Shown: positions 2,804-18,237 of the stretch, piece by piece | Layout: each line of letters opens with the position of its first letter | Position numbering within the stretch: the stretch's first letter is position 1 | IMG/VR virus record: IMGVR_UViG_3300009593_000154 | Location: 1 to 20,994 of that record | Length of the DNA stretch: 20,994 nt | Source of the DNA: a virus | Strand: one strand, 5' to 3' | Notes under the pieces: model-generated | What the model was told of the DNA's origin: nothing | The model's input: only the letters and a program-made list of their open reading frames with translations | The model's database searches: none | Made by a program: the position numbers and the translations under genes

Positions 2804-3043
2804 CTATGACGGTTTAGTAGGGAAGGTTACAGATGATATATCAATGTGAGGTCCATCTTGTTTAATGGTAGCTACATCAATAGTCTTAGTCATATCTCTC
2901 AAAGATTGTCTGTATGTTTTCCATTCAGCTTTTTTACTATCAGATAAAGGACTATCATTAGCTTGAGTCCAATCAGAATCAGTTAATCTTCTATTTCTTT
3001 CGTACCTTAAATCTTGCATTTTATATTCGTCTGTAAGTGCCAT
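2804..3043 (-). CDS. Short tail-assembly chaperone-like protein, 79 aa
   Basis: This is essentially only the core of the chaperone-like domain: LRYERNRRLTDSDWTQ (residues about 12-27), WKTYRQSLRDM (about 41-51) and a C-terminal IDISSVTFPTKPS tail. It matches the C-terminal half of the 136-aa paralogue at 1382-1792, including the terminal SSVTFP(S/T)KP, but lacks that protein's 70-residue N-terminal part. AGGA precedes the ATG by 7 nt. It sits between a C1q-like gene (3048-3584) and an MSTL-family gene (2352-2795), the mirror arrangement of the other copy. I infer a helper for folding or attachment of the adjacent fibre-tip proteins. Confidence 0.75.
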   Translation of the reverse strand: MALTDEYKMQDLRYERNRRLTDSDWTQANDSPLSDSKKAEWKTYRQSLRDMTKTIDVATIKQDGPHIDISSVTFPTKPS

Positions 3044-7271: not shown

Positions 7272-7907
7272 TTATCCACCTACACTAACCTTATTCGCAC
7301 CAGATCTATAAGAATCTGTTACATTTCTAACTTCAGAAATATTTTGAAGTAACGTCATAGATTGTAAATATAATTTCTCATAATTTGCTATTACGTCAGG
7401 TTCTCCTTTTTGGAATCTTATAGCTTCTATAAGCGCACCATTTAAAAGGGCAGAATCAAAATCATCCCCAAGAAATGTAGTACTAGCGGTAACTATAGAT
7501 GTAGGATAATAACCATAATGTAGCTCAACATTATAAGCAGCGTCTGGCGTAGGACCTAATATAAAAAACCCATCAGACCATTGTGAATAATGTTTAGGTG
7601 TACCTGTGGTCGAAGGGTTTGGATAGGCTTCTCGCATAAAATTAACATCTTTATACAACAAAAAACTATGTACATTTGCAGATGATGTATAAATAGACAT
7701 ACTATAGGAATAAAGAAAGTCCGAAGGTATAGATAAATACTTATTACTTGATGTTAATGCAGAAGTTACATTCTTCCGCAACGCAGGTATCTGAACTGTA
7801 TTATAGATCTTTTGCTCTGCTTGCTGAGTAAACATAGCAAACTGATCGTCCGTAAACGTAGTTTCACATATATCTGCTATATTGGTTTTTAAAGATGTGT
7901 AATTCAT
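7272..7907 (-). CDS. Putative neck / head-tail connector protein, 211 aa
   Basis: The N-terminal helical segment MNYTSLKTNIADICETTFTD followed by FTQQAEQKIYNTVQIPALRK, then a YLSIPSDFLYSYSMSI strand and a C-terminal helix (LLNGALIEAIRFQKGEPDVI...YEKLYLQSM), is the layout of phage adaptor or connector proteins that dock under the portal. The order helix pair, beta domain, helix resembles the other candidate adaptor (8790-9479), and the two may form successive neck rings. A GGGA/AAGG element precedes the ATG. The start lies 3 nt after the stop of the 49-aa basic gene. It may also be called a tail tubular-type protein; podovirus-like packaging genes favour a neck role. Confidence 0.72.
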   Translation of the reverse strand: MNYTSLKTNIADICETTFTDDQFAMFTQQAEQKIYNTVQIPALRKNVTSALTSSNKYLSIPSDFLYSYSMSIYTSSANVHSFLLYKDVNFMREAYPNPSTTGTPKHYSQWSDGFFILGPTPDAAYNVELHYGYYPTSIVTASTTFLGDDFDSALLNGALIEAIRFQKGEPDVIANYEKLYLQSMTLLQNISEVRNVTDSYRSGANKVSVGG

Positions 7908-7910
7908 ACC

Positions 7911-8060
7911 TTATCCCATTGGTCCTCTAGCGTATAAGCCTTTTGTTGCTAAACCCCCACCACGCATCTTTACTTTCTTGCCAACCTTCTTGGCATACTT
8001 TTTAGCTTCTTCCTTGCCCTTTTTTGTGTAACTAAAATGTTTTTTTCCTACTTTTGGCAT
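7911..8060 (-). CDS. Small basic neck-region protein with Gly/Arg C-terminal tail, 49 aa
   Basis: This short gene runs from ATG 8060-8058 to TAA 7913-7911, with an ideal AGGAG 6 nt before the start. It encodes MPKVGKKHFSYTKKGKEEAK followed by KYAKKVGKKVKMRGGGLATK and GLYARGPMG. About a third of the residues are Lys or Arg and there is only one acidic pair. The N-terminal half should be a basic helix; the C-terminal half (KMRGGGLATKG) resembles the tails of three other proteins in this neck region (8425-8790, 9872-10087, 10091-10519). I recall similar small proteins in marine phages. Nucleic-acid binding, or a packaged minor virion protein, is plausible. No function is established. Confidence 0.82.
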   Translation of the reverse strand: MPKVGKKHFSYTKKGKEEAKKYAKKVGKKVKMRGGGLATKGLYARGPMG

Positions 8061-8068
8061 TTTTTCTC

Positions 8069-8422
8069 CTAACTTGTTGTCACTGTAACACTACCTACTG
8101 ATCCTGTAGCTTCTAAAGTATTAGGAGATAGTCCATAGTTATTATTCCCATCCCCAACAGGTTTCCACCCCCAATTTATATTTCTACTGCTCGGATATCC
8201 TGTAAAGTCAGGACGTGGATCACGTACTGCCTGGGGGTCACGTACAGGATATAACCCTAACTTGTTTTGAGGATGATCTTCTTCCCAACAATCAGGACAT
8301 GCTTTTAGGTTAGTATTCTTGCCTCGTTTAAACAAATTACGTAATTCTCGTAGTCTATAACGAAATCCGCAGACATCACATTCCGCTATTACTTTTTTAC
8401 TGGAAGCATACGCTACACTCAT
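8069..8422 (-). CDS. Zinc-ribbon-like neck-region protein, 117 aa
   Basis: The N-terminal 50 residues carry two CxxC pairs: C15-x2-C18 (ECDVCGFRYRLRELR) and C42-x2-C45 (ACPDCWEEDHPQ), spaced as in a zinc ribbon. A basic stretch (LRELRNLFKRGKN) lies between them. The C-terminal half is Pro/Asn/Gly-rich and probably extended (VRDPQAVRDPRPD). I recall proteins of this pattern near neck genes of marine phages, always of unknown function. Metal binding is a good inference; DNA binding or stabilisation of a neck assembly is a guess. The ribosome-binding site (AGGTAAAAATG) is formed by the last codon and stop of the upstream gene, so the two are coupled. Confidence 0.8.
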   Translation of the reverse strand: MSVAYASSKKVIAECDVCGFRYRLRELRNLFKRGKNTNLKACPDCWEEDHPQNKLGLYPVRDPQAVRDPRPDFTGYPSSRNINWGWKPVGDGNNNYGLSPNTLEATGSVGSVTVTTS

Positions 8423-8424
8423 TT

Positions 8425-8790
8425 TTACCTCATTTTAACAGGTCTTACGCCTTTTTTGGCAATACCCGATCCACGGACTTTTTTACTCTTTTTGACTTTA
8501 CCCCCTGCTTTTTTACCTTCAGGTAAGTCAGGTCTTTTCATCATGTTAAATATTGGAAACGTAGGATCATCACCCCCTGCGCTTCCTCCACCTTTACTCC
8601 GCGACGCTCTTCTTTGCTCACGCTCTTTTCTTTGTTGTTCAAACTTTTTTATGTCTGCTTGTCTCTTTAGTCGTTTAAGGTCTTGTGTATAATCTACACT
8701 TTGGAAGTACTTATCAAAAGCCCGTTCGGGACTCATGTTAGCAATATTTTTTAATTGTGCTTTTGCTATCCTTCTTCCTTCGTAACTCAC
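8425..8790 (-). CDS. Basic protein with shared C-terminal tail (copy C), 121 aa
   Basis: The start is GTG (8790-8788), with GGGAG 6 nt upstream, and it shares its G with the stop (TAG) of the preceding gene. The N-terminal 60 residues are helical and very basic (SPERAFDKYFQSVDYTQDLK, then KKFEQQRKEREQRRASRSKG). A GGGSAGGD linker and a PTFPIFNMMKRPDLPEG segment lead into the terminal module GKKAGGKVKKSKKVRGSG followed by IAKKGVRPVKMR. The last module is nearly the same as in the 142-aa protein at 10091-10519, and its DNA includes exact direct repeats with both other tail genes. Polycationic character suggests contact with DNA or with acidic virion surfaces; the function is unknown. Confidence 0.82.
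   Translation of the reverse strand: MSYEGRRIAKAQLKNIANMSPERAFDKYFQSVDYTQDLKRLKRQADIKKFEQQRKEREQRRASRSKGGGSAGGDDPTFPIFNMMKRPDLPEGKKAGGKVKKSKKVRGSGIAKKGVRPVKMR
8427..8506. repeat. Direct repeat unit, tail-coding end of gene 8425-8790 (pairs with 10093-10172)
   Basis: These 80 bp align without gaps to 10093-10172 with about 72 identities by hand count; the right-hand 36 bp (8471-8506) are identical to 10137-10172. The repeat encodes the shared C-terminal tail from KVKKSKKVRG to VKMR and includes the AGGTA that serves as ribosome-binding site for the next gene. Synonymous positions are also conserved in the identical block, so recent duplication or gene conversion is likely. Confidence 0.88.
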
Positions 8791-9479
8791 TATATTCTCC
8801 CTACTCGTGGTATAAACCGTTCAGATGTTTTCTCCCTGTCTTCTCCTGCGGCTAAAGCGTATTGCTCTTCGTAATCTGTTTTTAATGCAGGTATACGTGC
8901 TGCAAGTTCAGGAGTTTTCATAGCTATATTATAAGCAAGACCTGCTACCAGACAAGGTAAAAAACGAAAGTTTATATCAGGCGTTTCAGCTCCATTACCT
9001 GCGTCTTCTATTCTTCGTAAACGCCAATATACAAACGTATACGTCGTAGAAGAATCGGGTACGGGCCATAAGTTTATCTTAGGAGCGGGTTGTAGTCGTT
9101 CTACCCATACCTGAAGAGGTCTACCTTGTGTTAACTTGTTTGGTATAGCCGAGTAGCTACCCACACCAATACGTGTTACGGAAAGGTCTGATTGAGTAGT
9201 TGTATTCCCTGCGTTTGTCCGTATGACATGGTCTAAAAGATCTATGGTATCCGCGGGAAGTGTATATTGGGAAGTTCCTGCTGTTAAAGTCTGAGTTCCA
9301 CTATCAATAGTCCATAAGTTTAGACCTCTGTTCTGCCACTCAATAGTCAATAAATTCATAGACCTACGAGCAGTTCTTAAATCATACCCAGACTGTAATG
9401 GACGACCCGCACGTTCCCAGGCTTCTTCAGCGATCTCTGTGAAATCCATTTCAAATGCTGTAGTTCCTGACGTAGCCAT
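8790..9479 (-). CDS. Head-tail adaptor / neck protein (P22 gp4- or T7 gp11-like), 229 aa
   Basis: The pattern is that of the portal-adjacent adaptor: FTEIAEEAWERAGRPLQ and RTARRSMNLLTIEWQNRGLN form the first helices. These are followed by LWTIDSGTQTLTAGTSQYTL and a PADTIDLLDHVI segment, then a beta region with GRPLQVWVERL and KINLWPVPDSSTTYTFVYW. A C-terminal helix, PCLVAGLAYNIAMKTPELAA, closes the domain. Adaptors of this type bind the portal after packaging and start the tail. It is the best neck candidate in the window. Only a weak, distant ribosome-binding site (AAGGA about 13 nt away) precedes the ATG, so coupling to the upstream gene that ends 7 nt earlier is likely. The exact P22 or T7 equivalence cannot be settled by eye. 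Confidence 0.8.
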   Translation of the reverse strand: MATSGTTAFEMDFTEIAEEAWERAGRPLQSGYDLRTARRSMNLLTIEWQNRGLNLWTIDSGTQTLTAGTSQYTLPADTIDLLDHVIRTNAGNTTTQSDLSVTRIGVGSYSAIPNKLTQGRPLQVWVERLQPAPKINLWPVPDSSTTYTFVYWRLRRIEDAGNGAETPDINFRFLPCLVAGLAYNIAMKTPELAARIPALKTDYEEQYALAAGEDREKTSERFIPRVGRI

Positions 9480-9485
9480 TGGATA

Positions 9486-9854
9486 TTAATTTTCCTTGTT
9501 GGGGGTATGTAGAACTGAAGCAAAGTACTCGTCAACTTCTGCTAACAAATCACTTTTAGTTTTACGTCTATCCAATTCTATTCCATGATCTCTCATTAAA
9601 GATTCTAATTCTACTTTGGTCATAGATTCATAATTAGGAGCATCAGAAGTAATTGCTTTCTCAATAATTTCTTCTACAGCTCCTTCCGCTACTTCTTCTA
9701 CAGGGGCAGGTTCTGGTGTCCCTTCTATCATTGCTTTGGCTTCAGCTTCGGTCATTATAGTTGTAGTCACAAGTTTATCGTCCTCGTTCATAACGTTATA
9801 AACAGGATTGTCGTTAATATCCGTACCAACTTGAACCATTTTTAAATTTGACAT
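9486..9854 (-). CDS. Acidic protein with C-terminal HeH/SAP-like domain, 122 aa
   Basis: Residues 1-45 form a small beta segment (MVQVGTDINDNPVYNVMNED) with a following helix. Residues 46-72 are a Glu/Pro/Ala-rich acidic linker. Residues about 78-111 (SMTKVELESLMRDHGIELDR, then KTKSDLLAEVDEYF) have the helix-extended loop-helix pattern of HeH/SAP/LEM-type domains, including the GIxLxxxxTKxDL core. Such domains usually contact nucleic acid or protein partners and occur in several phage structural and packaging proteins. AGGAG lies 6 nt before the ATG. Its acidity contrasts with the very basic proteins immediately upstream (9872-10087 and 10091-10519), so an interaction with them is conceivable. 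The domain call is from pattern recognition only. Confidence 0.78.
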   Translation of the reverse strand: MSNLKMVQVGTDINDNPVYNVMNEDDKLVTTTIMTEAEAKAMIEGTPEPAPVEEVAEGAVEEIIEKAITSDAPNYESMTKVELESLMRDHGIELDRRKTKSDLLAEVDEYFASVLHTPNKEN

Positions 9855-9871
9855 AGTTATCTCCTAAATAA

Positions 9872-10087
9872 TTATCTGTACTTACACTTTTTTACACCCC
9901 GTTTAGCAATACCTGCTCCACGGACTTTACCACCTTTTTTGTAGGCTTTAATTTTTCCACCTGCTTTTTTACCTTCAGGTTCTATAATAACCCCTTTCGA
10001 CCTAGCATATTGCTGAAGACTCATTACATTCTGAATAGCGTCGTCATCAAAATATTCGTTACGTACCTGTTGTTCTTCTTCGTCCAT
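9872..10087 (-). CDS. Basic protein with shared C-terminal tail (copy B), 71 aa
   Basis: An acidic N-terminal half (MDEEEQQVRNEYFDDDAIQN, then VMSLQQYARSKGV) is followed by EPEGKKAGGKIKAYKKGG and the tail KVRGAGIAKRGVKKCKYR. The tail is shared with the proteins at 10091-10519 and 8425-8790 but carries a duplicated KKGGK element and a CKYR end instead of VKMR. At DNA level, its EGKKAGG coding stretch (9960-9980) is identical to that of 8425-8790, while its RGAGIAK stretch is closer to 10091-10519, so this copy is a mosaic. The ribosome-binding site AGG lies in the last codon of the upstream gene. The opposed charges of the two halves are unusual for so small a protein. Function unknown. Confidence 0.8.
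   Translation of the reverse strand: MDEEEQQVRNEYFDDDAIQNVMSLQQYARSKGVIIEPEGKKAGGKIKAYKKGGKVRGAGIAKRGVKKCKYR
9960..9980. repeat. 21-bp exact direct repeat shared with 8504-8524
   Basis: The 21 bp at 9960-9980 (71-aa gene) and 8504-8524 (121-aa gene) are identical and encode PEGKKAGG-type sequence just before each basic tail. Together with the 80-bp unit this shows that tail pieces have been exchanged among the three genes. Confidence 0.85.
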
Positions 10088-10090
10088 AAT

Positions 10091-10519
10091 CTACCTCATT
10101 TTAACGGGTCTTACACCCTGTTTAGCAATACCTGCCCCACGGACTTTTTTACTCTTTTTGACTTTACCCCCTTGGTTCAAGTTGCCCCAGCGTCCAGGAA
10201 ATTTTTCTTTTAACTCTCTTTTTGTCATATCGAGTTCTCCAGAAAGATTCATATCTTTAGCCTTAGTAGGGTCTATACCAAAACTTCTTGCTTTAGGGGC
10301 ATCCTTACCGTATTCCCTTCTTAAACCAACATCTTTAAGATGAGCATCTGATATTAGCTTCCTCTCTTCCCTTTTCATGTCTTTACCTGATTCTCCACGT
10401 CCTTCCCATCTAGCTCGACGCTCTTTATCCCACTCTTTTTTTCTTCCAAGCACGTCTAAACTTTCACCTCTTGGTCCGCTTCTTCGTCGTCTAATATTTC
10501 CTCTAAATCTATCACTCAT
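10091..10519 (-). CDS. Highly basic protein with shared C-terminal tail (copy A), 142 aa
   Basis: The N-terminus is arginine-rich (MSDRFRGNIRRRRSGPRGES). The centre is a charged helical region (KKEWDKERRARWEGRGESGK, then KREERKLISDAH) with a TKRELKEKFPGRWG segment. The last 26 residues, GGKVKKSKKVRGAGIAKQ then GVRPVKMR, form the shared tail. The net charge is strongly positive throughout and the protein has no cysteine. A role as a DNA-contacting internal or neck protein is plausible; a minor scaffold-type helper is an alternative. AGGAG precedes the ATG by 6 nt. Its 3' end, covering the tail, stop and downstream ribosome-binding site, is repeated almost intact at the end of 8425-8790. Confidence 0.8.
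   Translation of the reverse strand: MSDRFRGNIRRRRSGPRGESLDVLGRKKEWDKERRARWEGRGESGKDMKREERKLISDAHLKDVGLRREYGKDAPKARSFGIDPTKAKDMNLSGELDMTKRELKEKFPGRWGNLNQGGKVKKSKKVRGAGIAKQGVRPVKMR
10093..10172. repeat. Direct repeat unit, tail-coding end of gene 10091-10519 (pairs with 8427-8506)
   Basis: This is the partner of the 80-bp unit in the 121-aa gene, 1,666 bp away in the same orientation. Its left half also resembles 9898-9930 in the 71-aa gene (GTTTAGCAATACCTG shared), linking all three tail genes at nucleotide level. Confidence 0.88.
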
Positions 10520-12205: not shown

Positions 12206-13114
12206 TTAAGCTCCTGGCGAACCATATATTCCTAATGGATCAGATACACCGAAAGAATATCTTTCTCTAGCCTTATATCGGCTATTGCCTGTATCAAAGT
12301 CAGCATCCATAGATGTCGCCATTGCAGCTCTGGTAAAGTGCTTAAGACCGTTAGGTACATCAGTTAACATGAACCATGCGTCAGTGTCAGTTAAATAATG
12401 ATTAACACTCCAACCTTCAGGAACAGCGCTCATGCTACGTAACGCATTGATATCGTTGTCCGCTGTAGATACTCGACCAGTAGACTCAAGTAATCTAGTC
12501 GCAACAAACTGTAAGTCTGCTGGAATGATTAACTTCTTAGGCTTTGCTGCGATAAGAAGTCCTCTTTCGTCTGTCCAACCTGCGATCTGAATAATAGCCG
12601 CTTCCAAGGAAGTTTCATTAAGATCAGCCGCGGTTGATGGTTCATTGGAGTTAGTACCACCTGAAACTAATGGGTGTGCAGTAGAACAAAGCTCCACTCC
12701 ATCTCCATAAGTAGTACCAGAGTCAAAAGCATTATTCAAAATTGAAGCTGCTTTAACCTGTTTTGTGTACGCCATAGCACGAGCAAGCGCTTTAGTATAA
12801 CGAGATGATAAAGAATCATACAAGTTATCCTCAATAGCCTCTTCAGTAATTGAAAAGCCCATTGCGATTGTCTCATGGTTATAGCGAGCTGTGAAAGCCT
12901 CTTGAGCATTGTCGTATTCGATGGCAGAGCCTTCGTCTTTGACTGGTGCTGCGGAGAAGCCTGATAGCTTAGTTTCCTCTTCAAAAGAACGGTCAGAACT
13001 TTCTGATTCGAAAATGTCCTTATGTTCCTCACCGTACTTTGCATACTCTAAACCGAATAATGCGTTCAAGCCAGGAAGTAGTTCTTTAAGGAGTTGTGCG
13101 CGTGAAATAGCCAT
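12206..13114 (-). CDS. Major capsid protein (HK97-type fold, Mu gpT-like family), 302 aa
   Basis: The position after portal, co-chaperonin and scaffold and the sequence pattern both support the major capsid protein. An N-terminal helix region MAISRAQLLKELLPGLNALF leads to an E-loop-like segment (EEETKLSGFSAAPVKDEGSA), then YNHETIAMGFSITEEAIED and a long spine-like helix (RYTKALARAMAYTKQVKAAS). After this come CSTAHPLVSGG, a PKKLIIPADLQFVATRLLES strand-helix and a C-terminal FGVSDPLGIYGSPGA. The HP and LIxPADL elements are typical of Mu gpT-like heads. The ribosome-binding site AGGAG is ideal, consistent with high output, and a terminator follows the gene. At 302 aa it fits the family's usual 290-310. 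No cleavage site or protease is apparent. Confidence 0.88.
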   Translation of the reverse strand: MAISRAQLLKELLPGLNALFGLEYAKYGEEHKDIFESESSDRSFEEETKLSGFSAAPVKDEGSAIEYDNAQEAFTARYNHETIAMGFSITEEAIEDNLYDSLSSRYTKALARAMAYTKQVKAASILNNAFDSGTTYGDGVELCSTAHPLVSGGTNSNEPSTAADLNETSLEAAIIQIAGWTDERGLLIAAKPKKLIIPADLQFVATRLLESTGRVSTADNDINALRSMSAVPEGWSVNHYLTDTDAWFMLTDVPNGLKHFTRAAMATSMDADFDTGNSRYKARERYSFGVSDPLGIYGSPGA

Positions 13115-15282: not shown

Positions 15283-15654
15283 TTATGCTCTCGCTATACC
15301 GCGAGGATCTGCTACAACAGCTTCTATAGAGTCATCATTCATTAAACGATACTCTTTTCCTGCCACTTTAAATCTTGTTCCACTATTAGCGCGAAACATT
15401 ACGAAATCACCTAATTTACACCAAGGAGTATCTCCAAACCTGTCTTTATCTTTATAGGCTTGTTCTCCTATGTCTACTACTAACCCCATTATAGACATGA
15501 CGTAATCGTGCATCATCTCCTTATCTGTCTTTAAGACACTGGTATCAGAGTAAGTTTTCTCTATTTCAGGTAACGCTACCAATACTCTATACCCTACAGG
15601 TCTTGGTAGTTGTTGTTCTAATTCGGCATCGTTTAATTGTACTACTTCAGTCAT
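15283..15654 (-). CDS. GroES-like co-chaperonin, 123 aa
   Basis: The second of two close ATGs (15654-15652) is chosen because GGAAG lies 6 nt upstream; the first ATG (15660) is too close to it. The GroES-type fold is visible as PRPVGYRVLVALPEIEKTYS (residues about 17-36), a VLKTDKEMMHDYV stretch where the mobile loop should be, MGLVVDIGEQAYKDKDRFGD, then KLGDFVMFRANSGTRFKVAG and EYRLMNDDSIEAVVAD. Co-chaperonins cap a GroEL ring during folding; phage versions such as T4 gp31 adapt the host chaperonin to fold the capsid protein. Its place between portal and scaffold genes fits that use. No GroEL gene is present here, so a host GroEL is presumably the partner. The IVL-like mobile-loop contact appears as SVL. 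Confidence 0.85.
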   Translation of the reverse strand: MTEVVQLNDAELEQQLPRPVGYRVLVALPEIEKTYSDTSVLKTDKEMMHDYVMSIMGLVVDIGEQAYKDKDRFGDTPWCKLGDFVMFRANSGTRFKVAGKEYRLMNDDSIEAVVADPRGIARA

Positions 15655-15844
15655 TATCATCTTCCATATAGTTGCGCGAGAGGTCTTCTATATACGCTAT
15701 GCTGGATTTTAGACCTCGTATCAATCCAACAATTTCCCTGTAATTCGCATAATCTTTAGCAGATCCTGCTTCAAGGAAACCCTGTGCAGAGGCTATATCA
15801 GCCTCGATTTTTTCTTTAAGCACGTCAAAGACGGTTTTAGCCAT
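15647..15844 (-). CDS. Small helical protein between portal and co-chaperonin, 65 aa
   Basis: The protein is helical and begins MAKTVFDVLKEKIEADIASA, followed by QGFLEAGSAKDYANYREIVG and LIRGLKSSIAYIEDLSRNYM, ending in acidic EDDND. Its heptad-like spacing suggests a short coiled coil or helical hairpin. The start overlaps the portal stop (TAATG) and its end overlaps the next frame by 8 nt, so it belongs to the same tightly coupled unit. Similar short helical proteins directly after portals are common in marine phages and have no assigned function that I know. A portal-assembly helper is possible. Confidence 0.78.
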   Translation of the reverse strand: MAKTVFDVLKEKIEADIASAQGFLEAGSAKDYANYREIVGLIRGLKSSIAYIEDLSRNYMEDDND

Positions 15845-18237
15845 TATTTACTCTTACTTGGTTGGTTTAATGTTTTAAACAACTCCATATCCAGTTTGTT
15901 GTCTTTCTCTACTTTATCAGCTTCAAGCTTAACGTTTTCTTTTTCTGCTTTTATCTGTACCTCGGCTTTATCTAGTTTTAACTTCTCAACCTGTATAGTA
16001 GCGTCAGCTTGGTCTTTCTTAGCTTTTCGCTCAACTTCTTGGGCTTTTATTTGAAGTTCAGCTTGCTGCATCTGGATTATTGGGTCTTTAGCCTGCTCTT
16101 GGGCTTTCTGCTGTGATGCTTCCTGCATATGTGCTTGAGCTAGTTGTTTACCTGCTTTAGCAATCATCCTAGATAGATCCACTTCTACTTCTTCGGGTAA
16201 GTCTTCATTCGGTAGCGGTAGCTCAACTCCAAGCCGTTCTTCCATATCTTTTCTATACTTAAACCCAAGATGTTCAGCTACATGAGCCTGTAGAGATGCC
16301 ATAATCTGTTTAGCCTGTGGATTCTGTCCTATCATCTGTGCAATCATAGGATCCTGCATAAAAGACATATGGGTCTCAATATGAGCATCCTGATCCTGAT
16401 ATATGAACGCTTTCATCGGTTTTCCCTGTAAAGCCGCCATATTTTCACTAATTGGGTCTACGGGCTTCATATCATCCTTAGTCGGAACAATTTTCTCTGC
16501 GTTCTTAACCCCAAGAACTTCTATCATCTGCCTATGTAACTGAGGTAAGTCATATATCTGTGGTGCAGCTTGAGCCATTTGGAGGACAGCTTGGTGCTGC
16601 ACCACTCTCTGTGCCATCGTAGAACTGTTAGGGTCAGACACAGGGATAACGTCAATCATTAAATAATCAGACTGTCTTGCGGACACATCACCTCTTGTAG
16701 GCTGATAAGCATACTCCGCGGAAGCGTATTCTGCCATTAATGCTTTTAGAAGTTTAAACTCTTGCTTCATGGCGTAATGAACACGAGCCTGTACAGCTGC
16801 CATAGGTTTTAAAGTACGCTCTAAGAGAGCTAGAGTTGTTCCTACAGGGGCATTAGCAGACATATCGGATATATTCATATCACTTACTGCCCCTAGTCTA
16901 CGCCCTTCCTGAGTGATCTGGTTCAATAAATTAAATAGAGTCTGACTAGGTTCTTTGTAAGGAAGAGGCATAATATTATCACGAATACTACCTGACGGAA
17001 CATCTACATCTTTCCACTCCCCAGGTTCAATAGGAGCGTCATCTCCTTTTATTCGTAACCCTCTGGCTTTTAGACCCCCAGGAAGGTTAGATAGTGTCCC
17101 TGCGTCTACAAGTTGCCGTATTATGGACGTACCTGCTTTAGCGTACCCCCCTATTATATGTATTAAACCAAGCCCATAAAACCCAAATCCTGGGACATAC
17201 ACATAATGTACAAAATGCTGACGTTTTAATCTAAGGTCATCTTCTGGGTCCCAATTTCGTCGTATAGATAATACTTCACTTGATCCACGCTCTATAGTTA
17301 CTACATAAGGTTTAGCAATATCTTCTTCTGAATCATCTATACCATCTATAACCAGATCCGCGTGAACCTCGTAAACGCTATATCTATCGTCATCTGTAAG
17401 AGAATACCCACCTTCTTCGGCTTTTCTTTCCTCAATATCACTATGGAACGGTTGTGGCTCACCAAGATCTACATCACGGTAAAACCCGTTAACCTGTAAC
17501 TTTCTCAATTCATTTTTAGTTTTTCGCATAACATGAGTTACACGCTCTGCTGTTTCTATATGAGAAGCCCCATAAGGTATAATCACATCTTCTGCGGGTA
17601 TATATAGAGCAACTTGTCGTCCTAGATTAGGATCATAATATACTTTCTTAAAAGCTGACCCTGCTAAACCAAGACTATATAGTAATCTTTCATGTTCAGA
17701 ACGATACTCTACCATATTCTCAGTTAACTGATAGTTCATATCCGCTTTAACTCGTTCAGAAGCTTCTAATTTTTCCCGTGTCTCCTGCCCTAATACTTTA
17801 GTCTTTACAGGTCCCGCTGCGGGAAACGTTTCACTCATAGTTTCTGCTTGGAACCGTATAGCTGCTTCCGCTAACACGTTAGAATATACTCCACAAGCAC
17901 CTTCCCAGGGTTCTGTACGTTCTTCATACTTAAATCCTAACACGTCAAGACCCTTTACAAAGGTATCCGCCCAGTCTTTACGGCTTTCTACATCTGAGTC
18001 AATTAATCCTGAAATATCAGTAGATAGTAAAGATAACTCATCTTCTTCCATAGATTCAGCAAGGTTTTCATCAAATTCACCTGAACTCTCCTTACCTCCG
18101 TCAGGAACTATGGTAATCTCCATACTACCATCATCTAGTGTGACCATATCTGGATTAACAACTTCAATTTCTAACTGTTCCGTCTCTTCTTCCTCTACAC
18201 CCTTCGGGGCTTGGAATAATCCTTTTTCTATTGCCAT
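15844..18237 (-). CDS. Portal protein, 797 aa (P22-like size)
   Basis: It follows the terminase large subunit with a one-base overlap (TGATG) and has the expected size for the P22-like class. The first 75 residues are acidic and probably disordered. The core shows EPWEGACGVYSNVLAEAAIR, EYRSEHERLLYSLGLAGSAF then KKVYYDPNLGRQVALYIPAE, the wing/stem region FGFYGLGLIHIIGGYAKAGT then RQLVDAGTLSNLPGGLKARG, and PLPYKEPSQTLFNLLNQITQ. The last 120 residues are a long charged helical region (KAQEVERKAKKDQADATIQV, EKLKLDKAEVQIKAEKENVK) suggesting a C-terminal barrel or coiled coil inside the capsid, as in podovirus portals. The dodecameric ring is the DNA entry gate and docks the terminase. Confidence 0.88.
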   Translation of the reverse strand: MAIEKGLFQAPKGVEEEETEQLEIEVVNPDMVTLDDGSMEITIVPDGGKESSGEFDENLAESMEEDELSLLSTDISGLIDSDVESRKDWADTFVKGLDVLGFKYEERTEPWEGACGVYSNVLAEAAIRFQAETMSETFPAAGPVKTKVLGQETREKLEASERVKADMNYQLTENMVEYRSEHERLLYSLGLAGSAFKKVYYDPNLGRQVALYIPAEDVIIPYGASHIETAERVTHVMRKTKNELRKLQVNGFYRDVDLGEPQPFHSDIEERKAEEGGYSLTDDDRYSVYEVHADLVIDGIDDSEEDIAKPYVVTIERGSSEVLSIRRNWDPEDDLRLKRQHFVHYVYVPGFGFYGLGLIHIIGGYAKAGTSIIRQLVDAGTLSNLPGGLKARGLRIKGDDAPIEPGEWKDVDVPSGSIRDNIMPLPYKEPSQTLFNLLNQITQEGRRLGAVSDMNISDMSANAPVGTTLALLERTLKPMAAVQARVHYAMKQEFKLLKALMAEYASAEYAYQPTRGDVSARQSDYLMIDVIPVSDPNSSTMAQRVVQHQAVLQMAQAAPQIYDLPQLHRQMIEVLGVKNAEKIVPTKDDMKPVDPISENMAALQGKPMKAFIYQDQDAHIETHMSFMQDPMIAQMIGQNPQAKQIMASLQAHVAEHLGFKYRKDMEERLGVELPLPNEDLPEEVEVDLSRMIAKAGKQLAQAHMQEASQQKAQEQAKDPIIQMQQAELQIKAQEVERKAKKDQADATIQVEKLKLDKAEVQIKAEKENVKLEADKVEKDNKLDMELFKTLNQPSKSK

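Follow-up and report, generated by a model that had tools for sequence, protein, structure and literature searches.

A C-terminal peptide shared by unrelated small proteins encoded around the portal and adaptor genes of an aquatic phage lineage: a possible, apparently undescribed docking tag

The organization of the head-tail module was analyzed in an IMG/VR record of 20,994 bases (the window, i.e. the whole stretch of DNA considered here). The minus-strand order in the head part is TerS, TerL, portal, GroES-like orf125, scaffold, orf149, orf210 and major capsid protein; it continues with orf301, orf200, A142, A71, orf122, adaptor 1 and A121, and then with orf117, B49, adaptor 2, orf97, orf217 and the fibre genes. 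Four of these genes encode proteins ending in a common peptide, hereafter the tag, which exists in several dialects designated by letters. The tagged genes, their tags and the neighbours that delimit them are as follows:

15844..18237, minus strand: portal protein (tblastn to isolate portals), flanked in relatives by E-type tags
12206..13114, minus strand: major capsid protein (position and family as in isolates), boundary of the A/D slot on the head side
10091..10519, minus strand: tagged protein A142, 142 aa, dialect A, without family in PHROGs or Pfam
10094..10144, minus strand: tag of A142, VRGAGIAKQGVRPVKMR-COOH
9872..10087, minus strand: tagged protein A71, 71 aa, dialect A, without family in PHROGs or Pfam
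9875..9925, minus strand: tag of A71, VRGAGIAKRGVKKCKYR-COOH
9486..9854, minus strand: orf122, without tag, sometimes located between the A/D slot and adaptor 1 (46 loci, gene order)
8790..9479, minus strand: adaptor 1, SU10_adaptor PF24175 (Pfam 1.3e-12), adjoining the A/D slot
8425..8790, minus strand: tagged protein A121, 121 aa, dialect A, without family in PHROGs or Pfam
8428..8478, minus strand: tag of A121, VRGSGIAKKGVRPVKMR-COOH
8069..8422, minus strand: orf117, conserved putative zinc-ribbon between adaptor 1 and B49 (homologues in 214 of 266 loci)
7911..8060, minus strand: tagged protein B49, 49 aa, dialect B, between orf117 and adaptor 2
7914..7967, minus strand: tag of B49, MRGGGLATKGLYARGPMG-COOH, predicted disordered (pLDDT about 41)
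7272..7907, minus strand: adaptor 2, SU10_adaptor PF24175 (Pfam 6.3e-20)

The major capsid protein shares family and position with the annotated capsid proteins of HTVC023P, HTVC027P and Pag-Yong1. Both adaptors exceed the curated Pfam cutoff of SU10_adaptor (49.1 and 72.9 bits vs 27). The AlphaFold model of window adaptor 2 is matched by Foldseek to the VP1, Pa223 and SU10 adaptors, and that of adaptor 1 from a relative has the solved podophage adaptor fold. We observed two SU10-family adaptor paralogues in one neck (7272-7907 and 8790-9479), compared to one in SU10, which points to a neck with two rings of adaptor stacked on each other or to paralogues with divided roles. A GroES-like co-chaperonin gene lies between the portal and scaffold genes (window 15283-15660); it is conserved across lineage members, and isolate annotations call it GroES.

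The proteins A142, A71, A121 and B49 end in GGKVKKSKKVRGAGIAKQGVRPVKMR, GGKIKAYKKGGKVRGAGIAKRGVKKCKYR, GGKVKKSKKVRGSGIAKKGVRPVKMR and KVKMRGGGLATKGLYARGPMG respectively, each directly followed by the stop codon. All four endings conform to R-G-x-G-x-A-x-x-G-x(7-8)-stop, within a tag of about 17 residues. The motif RGxGxAxxG was found at most 12 residues from the end in 4 of the 32 window proteins, compared to a mean of 0.001 and never more than 1 in 20,000 residue shuffles of the same proteins; together with an ORF check, which places all four on the minus strand, this bears out the initial annotation, which had described four proteins with such endings. The same annotation considered the bodies of the three A-type proteins to be unrelated, and BLASTP indeed finds no likeness among A142, A71 and A121. 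The tail of B49 had been taken for a looser version of the A-type tail; it is in fact a separate and equally strict dialect, of which each genome of the A and D lineages has exactly one copy.

At least five dialects were distinguished in public viral contigs: A, KVRGAGIARKGVRPxKMR; B, K(V/I)RGTGAATKGxxARGPM(A/G), whose first K is sometimes missing; C, RGxGAATxGxKFTRxG; D, SxR(G/A)DGIAQRGKTKGRMV; and E, RGxGAA(I/T/V)(R/K)GxKFxGVF/K. The position of the tag is highly constrained: among the matches listed, RGxGxAxxG occurs 504 times in 25,124 ORFs of 266 loci, lies at most 15 residues from the C-terminus in 496 of these occurrences, and stands at a distance of exactly 7 residues in 280 and exactly 8 in 200. 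Two other endings were seen in relatives. Small basic proteins encoded between orf117 and the B gene end in (M/Y)GRN(M/L)A(K/R)V(A/M)NQ..., possibly another tag-like end (L119 9631-9861, L131 4977-5156, L152 2967-3152, and L270 near orf117). A diverged ending, RGCGxVxxxRRKKTxxx, is perhaps a further dialect; its genes occupy the slot preceding adaptor 1 or that following the portal (L040 1047-1376, L146 43-366, L180 9157-9351).

Scans of viral contigs with the A, B and D tails gave at least about 600 stretches, and at least 636 distinct tagged proteins are present in public viral contigs when E is included. Among the matches listed, BLAST groups the bodies that are 40 residues or longer into 93, 111 or 137 clusters at E 1e-2, 1e-3 and 1e-5, figures obtained by single linkage, which together with low-complexity Gly/Lys stretches may merge clusters falsely, and by BLAST, which distant kinship can escape. 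The true count of body families, judged from sequence comparison, is thus uncertain (about 90-140 clusters) but greater than one, and a tail restricted to a single homologous family, the outcome named in the initial annotation as refuting its proposal, is not what was found. Hardly any family was found for 97 representative tagged proteins in PHROGs, Pfam and NCBIfam; the body of B49 matches phrog_33179, of unknown function. The tagged proteins are strongly basic, with a median pI of 9.9-10.9 according to dialect, compared to 5.2 in neighbours. An N-terminal membrane helix, considered as a theme common to the bodies, was dropped, being present in only 7 of 515 tagged proteins.

We then compared amino-acid and nucleotide conservation in tags that had not been searched for, i.e. 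B tags in contigs fetched with A or D and A/D tags in contigs fetched with B, because the searches themselves select on residues. Such tags, carried by contigs with unrelated bodies and still recognised via a core regular expression fixing about six positions, show 72-82% residue identity, whereas the fourfold-site third bases of identical residues are only 34-48% identical. This difference indicates selection on the peptide. In the window, two of the three A tags are identical at 43 of 51 DNA positions, and these two closest copies may result from a recent duplication within one genome.

The distribution of tagged genes along the module is strikingly regular. Of the contigs that were fetched with A or D and contain both orf117 and adaptor 2, 98 of 99 place exactly one B-tag gene in that interval. 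Reciprocally, in 30 of 31 contigs fetched with B and containing head genes and adaptor 1, the interval from the former to the latter harbours one to three A/D-tag genes. Over the loci, this A/D slot before adaptor 1 holds 1-5 tandem unrelated proteins with one common terminal peptide. The E and C dialects were scanned with a DNA pattern of tag plus stop, blind to neighbour genes: an ORF ends in the tag in 119 of the 120 loci obtained, the tag is internal in none, and the same head-tail module genes are present in 116 of the 119. E-tag slots lie between TerL and portal, portal and GroES, head genes and adaptor 1, adaptor 1 and orf117, and orf117 and adaptor 2; no tag gene was seen within the GroES-scaffold-capsid block of the loci examined. 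In 18 long records (45-70 kb) the general pattern matched almost exclusively in slots flanking portal or adaptor genes, and the sole off-slot match, at 12415 in one of them (G006), looks like chance. The B tag, searched in 84,980 prokaryotes (one genome per species), gave two matches, both in metagenome bins, one of them on a 62.8 kb contig with the full phage module. Taken with the selection on the peptide and the strict C-terminal position, this strict coupling to portal and adaptor genes strongly supports the earlier proposal of a C-terminal address tag shared by differing neck-region proteins, now with at least 636 carriers in about 90-140 body clusters.

Tags are almost confined to one phage lineage, characterized by SU10/T7-type adaptors and an HTVC023P-like portal, which is very common and consists mostly of uncultured marine and freshwater phages. 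The initial annotation mentioned similar endings in other marine phages; the carriers are a single lineage with several dialects, not marine phages in general, and its freshwater members are no poorer in tags than the marine ones. The dialects track the portal tree, on which they require 8 parsimony changes compared to 51 on average with shuffled labels; dialect A occupies one clade almost by itself, and another clade is made up of D and A. The loci of this tree were gathered by tag, and the share of tag-less members is not to be read from it. Isolates and deposited genomes were found through portal or adaptor likeness and not through the tag. HTVC023P, whose host is SAR11, carries tags on gp32 and gp51 and a divergent one on gp30, the Planktothrix phage Pag-Yong1 has a tagged protein, UMO75986, ending in GRDGCAKRGRTKGRFI, and 023Pt_psg01 a diverged tag. 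No recognisable tag was found in HTVC027P, CRP-901, Caulobacter RW, QDWS535 and three environmental genomes identified in the same way, nor in SU10. Since lineage members such as HTVC027P and CRP-901 lack a recognised tag, it is not universally needed. As a side observation, orf117 is longer (199-314 aa vs roughly 105-173) in HTVC027P, CRP-901 and 023Pt_psg01 (L177, L178, L180), which are without the standard tag, as if the extension took the place of tagged proteins.

The nearest known parallel concerns gp7.3 of T7. The C-terminal loop of this protein, residues 84-98 of 99, is its only ordered part (PMC11784390; PDB 9jyz); six copies fit between the nozzle subunits where nozzle and adaptor meet, their lysines placed on the DNA end, and the basic, disordered N-terminus surrounds the DNA (PMC11784390). 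The tagged proteins resemble gp7.3 in being small and basic and in having a gene near the portal. In gp7.3 the N-terminal part is basic and disordered and about 15 C-terminal residues do the docking; the tagged proteins have a high pI and a tag predicted to be disordered, but one D body is a confident fold. The differences are that T7 has one such protein per phage, with no set of unrelated carriers, and that its terminal sequence, GKKSLSVARSSGGGINI, differs from the tag. No sequence relation between the tag and gp7.3 was found. No gp7.3-like family was found for the tagged proteins in PHROG and Pfam scans, and the tag matched no solved chain of the PDB.

We consider it somewhat probable that the tag is a C-terminal docking peptide which anchors basic proteins to the portal/adaptor connector in the manner of gp7.3. 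The tag would be a short linear motif, and its carriers small, basic and mostly flexible proteins that are presumably parts of the virion. It would dock at a repeated site between subunits of the portal, adaptor or nozzle ring, while the basic Gly/Lys-rich stretch preceding it would line the channel and contact the DNA end. The variable bodies could then be exchangeable cargo or local accessories, with B as the constant member, having its own site near adaptor 2, and A, D and E as variable members. Such an anchor would work as the gp7.3 loop does, but would serve many proteins. Structure prediction is consistent with a flexible tag: in the D protein of a relative the tag has a pLDDT of about 36-43 and body residues 11-46 form a confident fold, and the body of B49 is a small strand-helix element with the tag as the low-confidence part. 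Two AlphaFold models were built in which the stop codon was read through only as a device to join the tagged protein to its adaptor; the tag is low-confidence in this adaptor-joined monomer, which cannot form a site between ring subunits. The differing terminal sequence of gp7.3 and the lineage members without a recognised tag speak against this reading, and gene neighbourhood points to the binding partner only indirectly. More tentatively, and less likely than not, a single ring-shaped connector receptor might take any protein ending in the dialect of its lineage, with a second constant site for B.

The main rival to the docking anchor is a head-loading signal. In this view the tag would bind the scaffold, the capsid protein or the inner barrel of the portal while the prohead assembles, and would bring variable internal proteins into the head, to be ejected later with the DNA. 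Such a signal would mirror, at the C-terminus, the T4 capsid targeting sequence, which is N-terminal, about 10 residues long and packages almost any protein (PMC7697877). The T4 signal is a short terminal peptide directing several differing proteins to a common virion; for the tag, sharing by unrelated proteins is seen at the level of the genes of one genome. The hypervariable slot, with its tandem unrelated proteins and one terminal peptide, has the layout expected of exchangeable cargo, and the slots are also close to portal and capsid genes. The T4 signal is however N-terminal, cut off by the prohead protease and without sequence likeness to the tag, which is C-terminal in nearly all occurrences (496/504 among the matches listed); moreover, the tag genes seen all lie outside the GroES-scaffold-capsid block, and the membrane helix typical of some pilot proteins is rare (7/515). 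We regard head loading as rather unlikely; both functions could coexist.

The remaining explanations dispense with a receptor in the virion. That the basic end touches or condenses packaged DNA directly, with no protein partner, accords with the high pI and the richness in Gly, Lys and Arg, but pure electrostatics needs neither an invariant R-G-x-G-x-A-x-x-G nor a fixed C-terminal distance, and leaves unneeded the lineage-specific dialects and the near-invariant ARGPM(A/G) end in slot 2; we find it improbable. A degron or host-targeting end of late proteins, without role in the virion, is very improbable given the strict coupling to portal/adaptor genes and one portal lineage, with no carrier elsewhere in the genomes. 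Finally, a DNA-level repeat or recombination sequence translated by happenstance is hardly credible: it would account for the 43/51 DNA identity of two window A copies, but not for third bases far more diverged than residues (34-48% vs 72-82%), nor for a reading frame and C-terminal position that are the same throughout.

Among phages of known neck structure, SU10 (adaptor gp11, nozzle gp17; PMC9509320) has the adaptor family of the window and a short tail, but one adaptor gene; it lacks the tag, and its capsid and adaptor genes enclose no tagged slot. The HTVC023P-type pelagiphages (PMC9599517) have the same head-tail module, with tags on HTVC023P proteins, and a text search of PMC9599517 gave no mention of a C-terminal feature. 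No such tag is known in Pfam, PHROGs, NCBIfam or the PDB, and no described tag, tag peptide or experiment on it was found in the literature searched, most subscription papers lying outside the search. The tail alone and B49 gave no tblastn match to isolate phages, probably because of the low-complexity filter. The peptide looks like an apparently undescribed docking tag for virion neck proteins. Through its sequence, hundreds of proteins without known function can be grouped as likely components of a single assembly, and it predicts which small proteins should belong to the virion neck; it is also a candidate signal by which fusion proteins might be loaded onto the phage connector. If a single connector receptor does take every protein with the right dialect, the lineage could swap unrelated neck or ejected proteins from a large stock as plug-in parts, which would be a general, programmable way of loading a phage neck.

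Two further features of the module were noted. Adaptor 2 of the window starts 3 nt past the stop codon of B49, and exactly this spacing, with the frame kept, was observed in about half of the contigs (window 7907-7913, 174 relatives); it probably reflects a tight coupling of translation in one lineage. The data do not support a programmed read-through from the B stop codon into adaptor 2, only 92 of 174 adjacent pairs being in frame, all of which share one arrangement. In the fibre region of the window, several genes look duplicated (1789-2385, 2352-2795, 1382-1792 and 2804-3043): two genes have an MSTLxVDxxQG-like start, and a WTxxxD...YRQxLRD motif is common to two small proteins.
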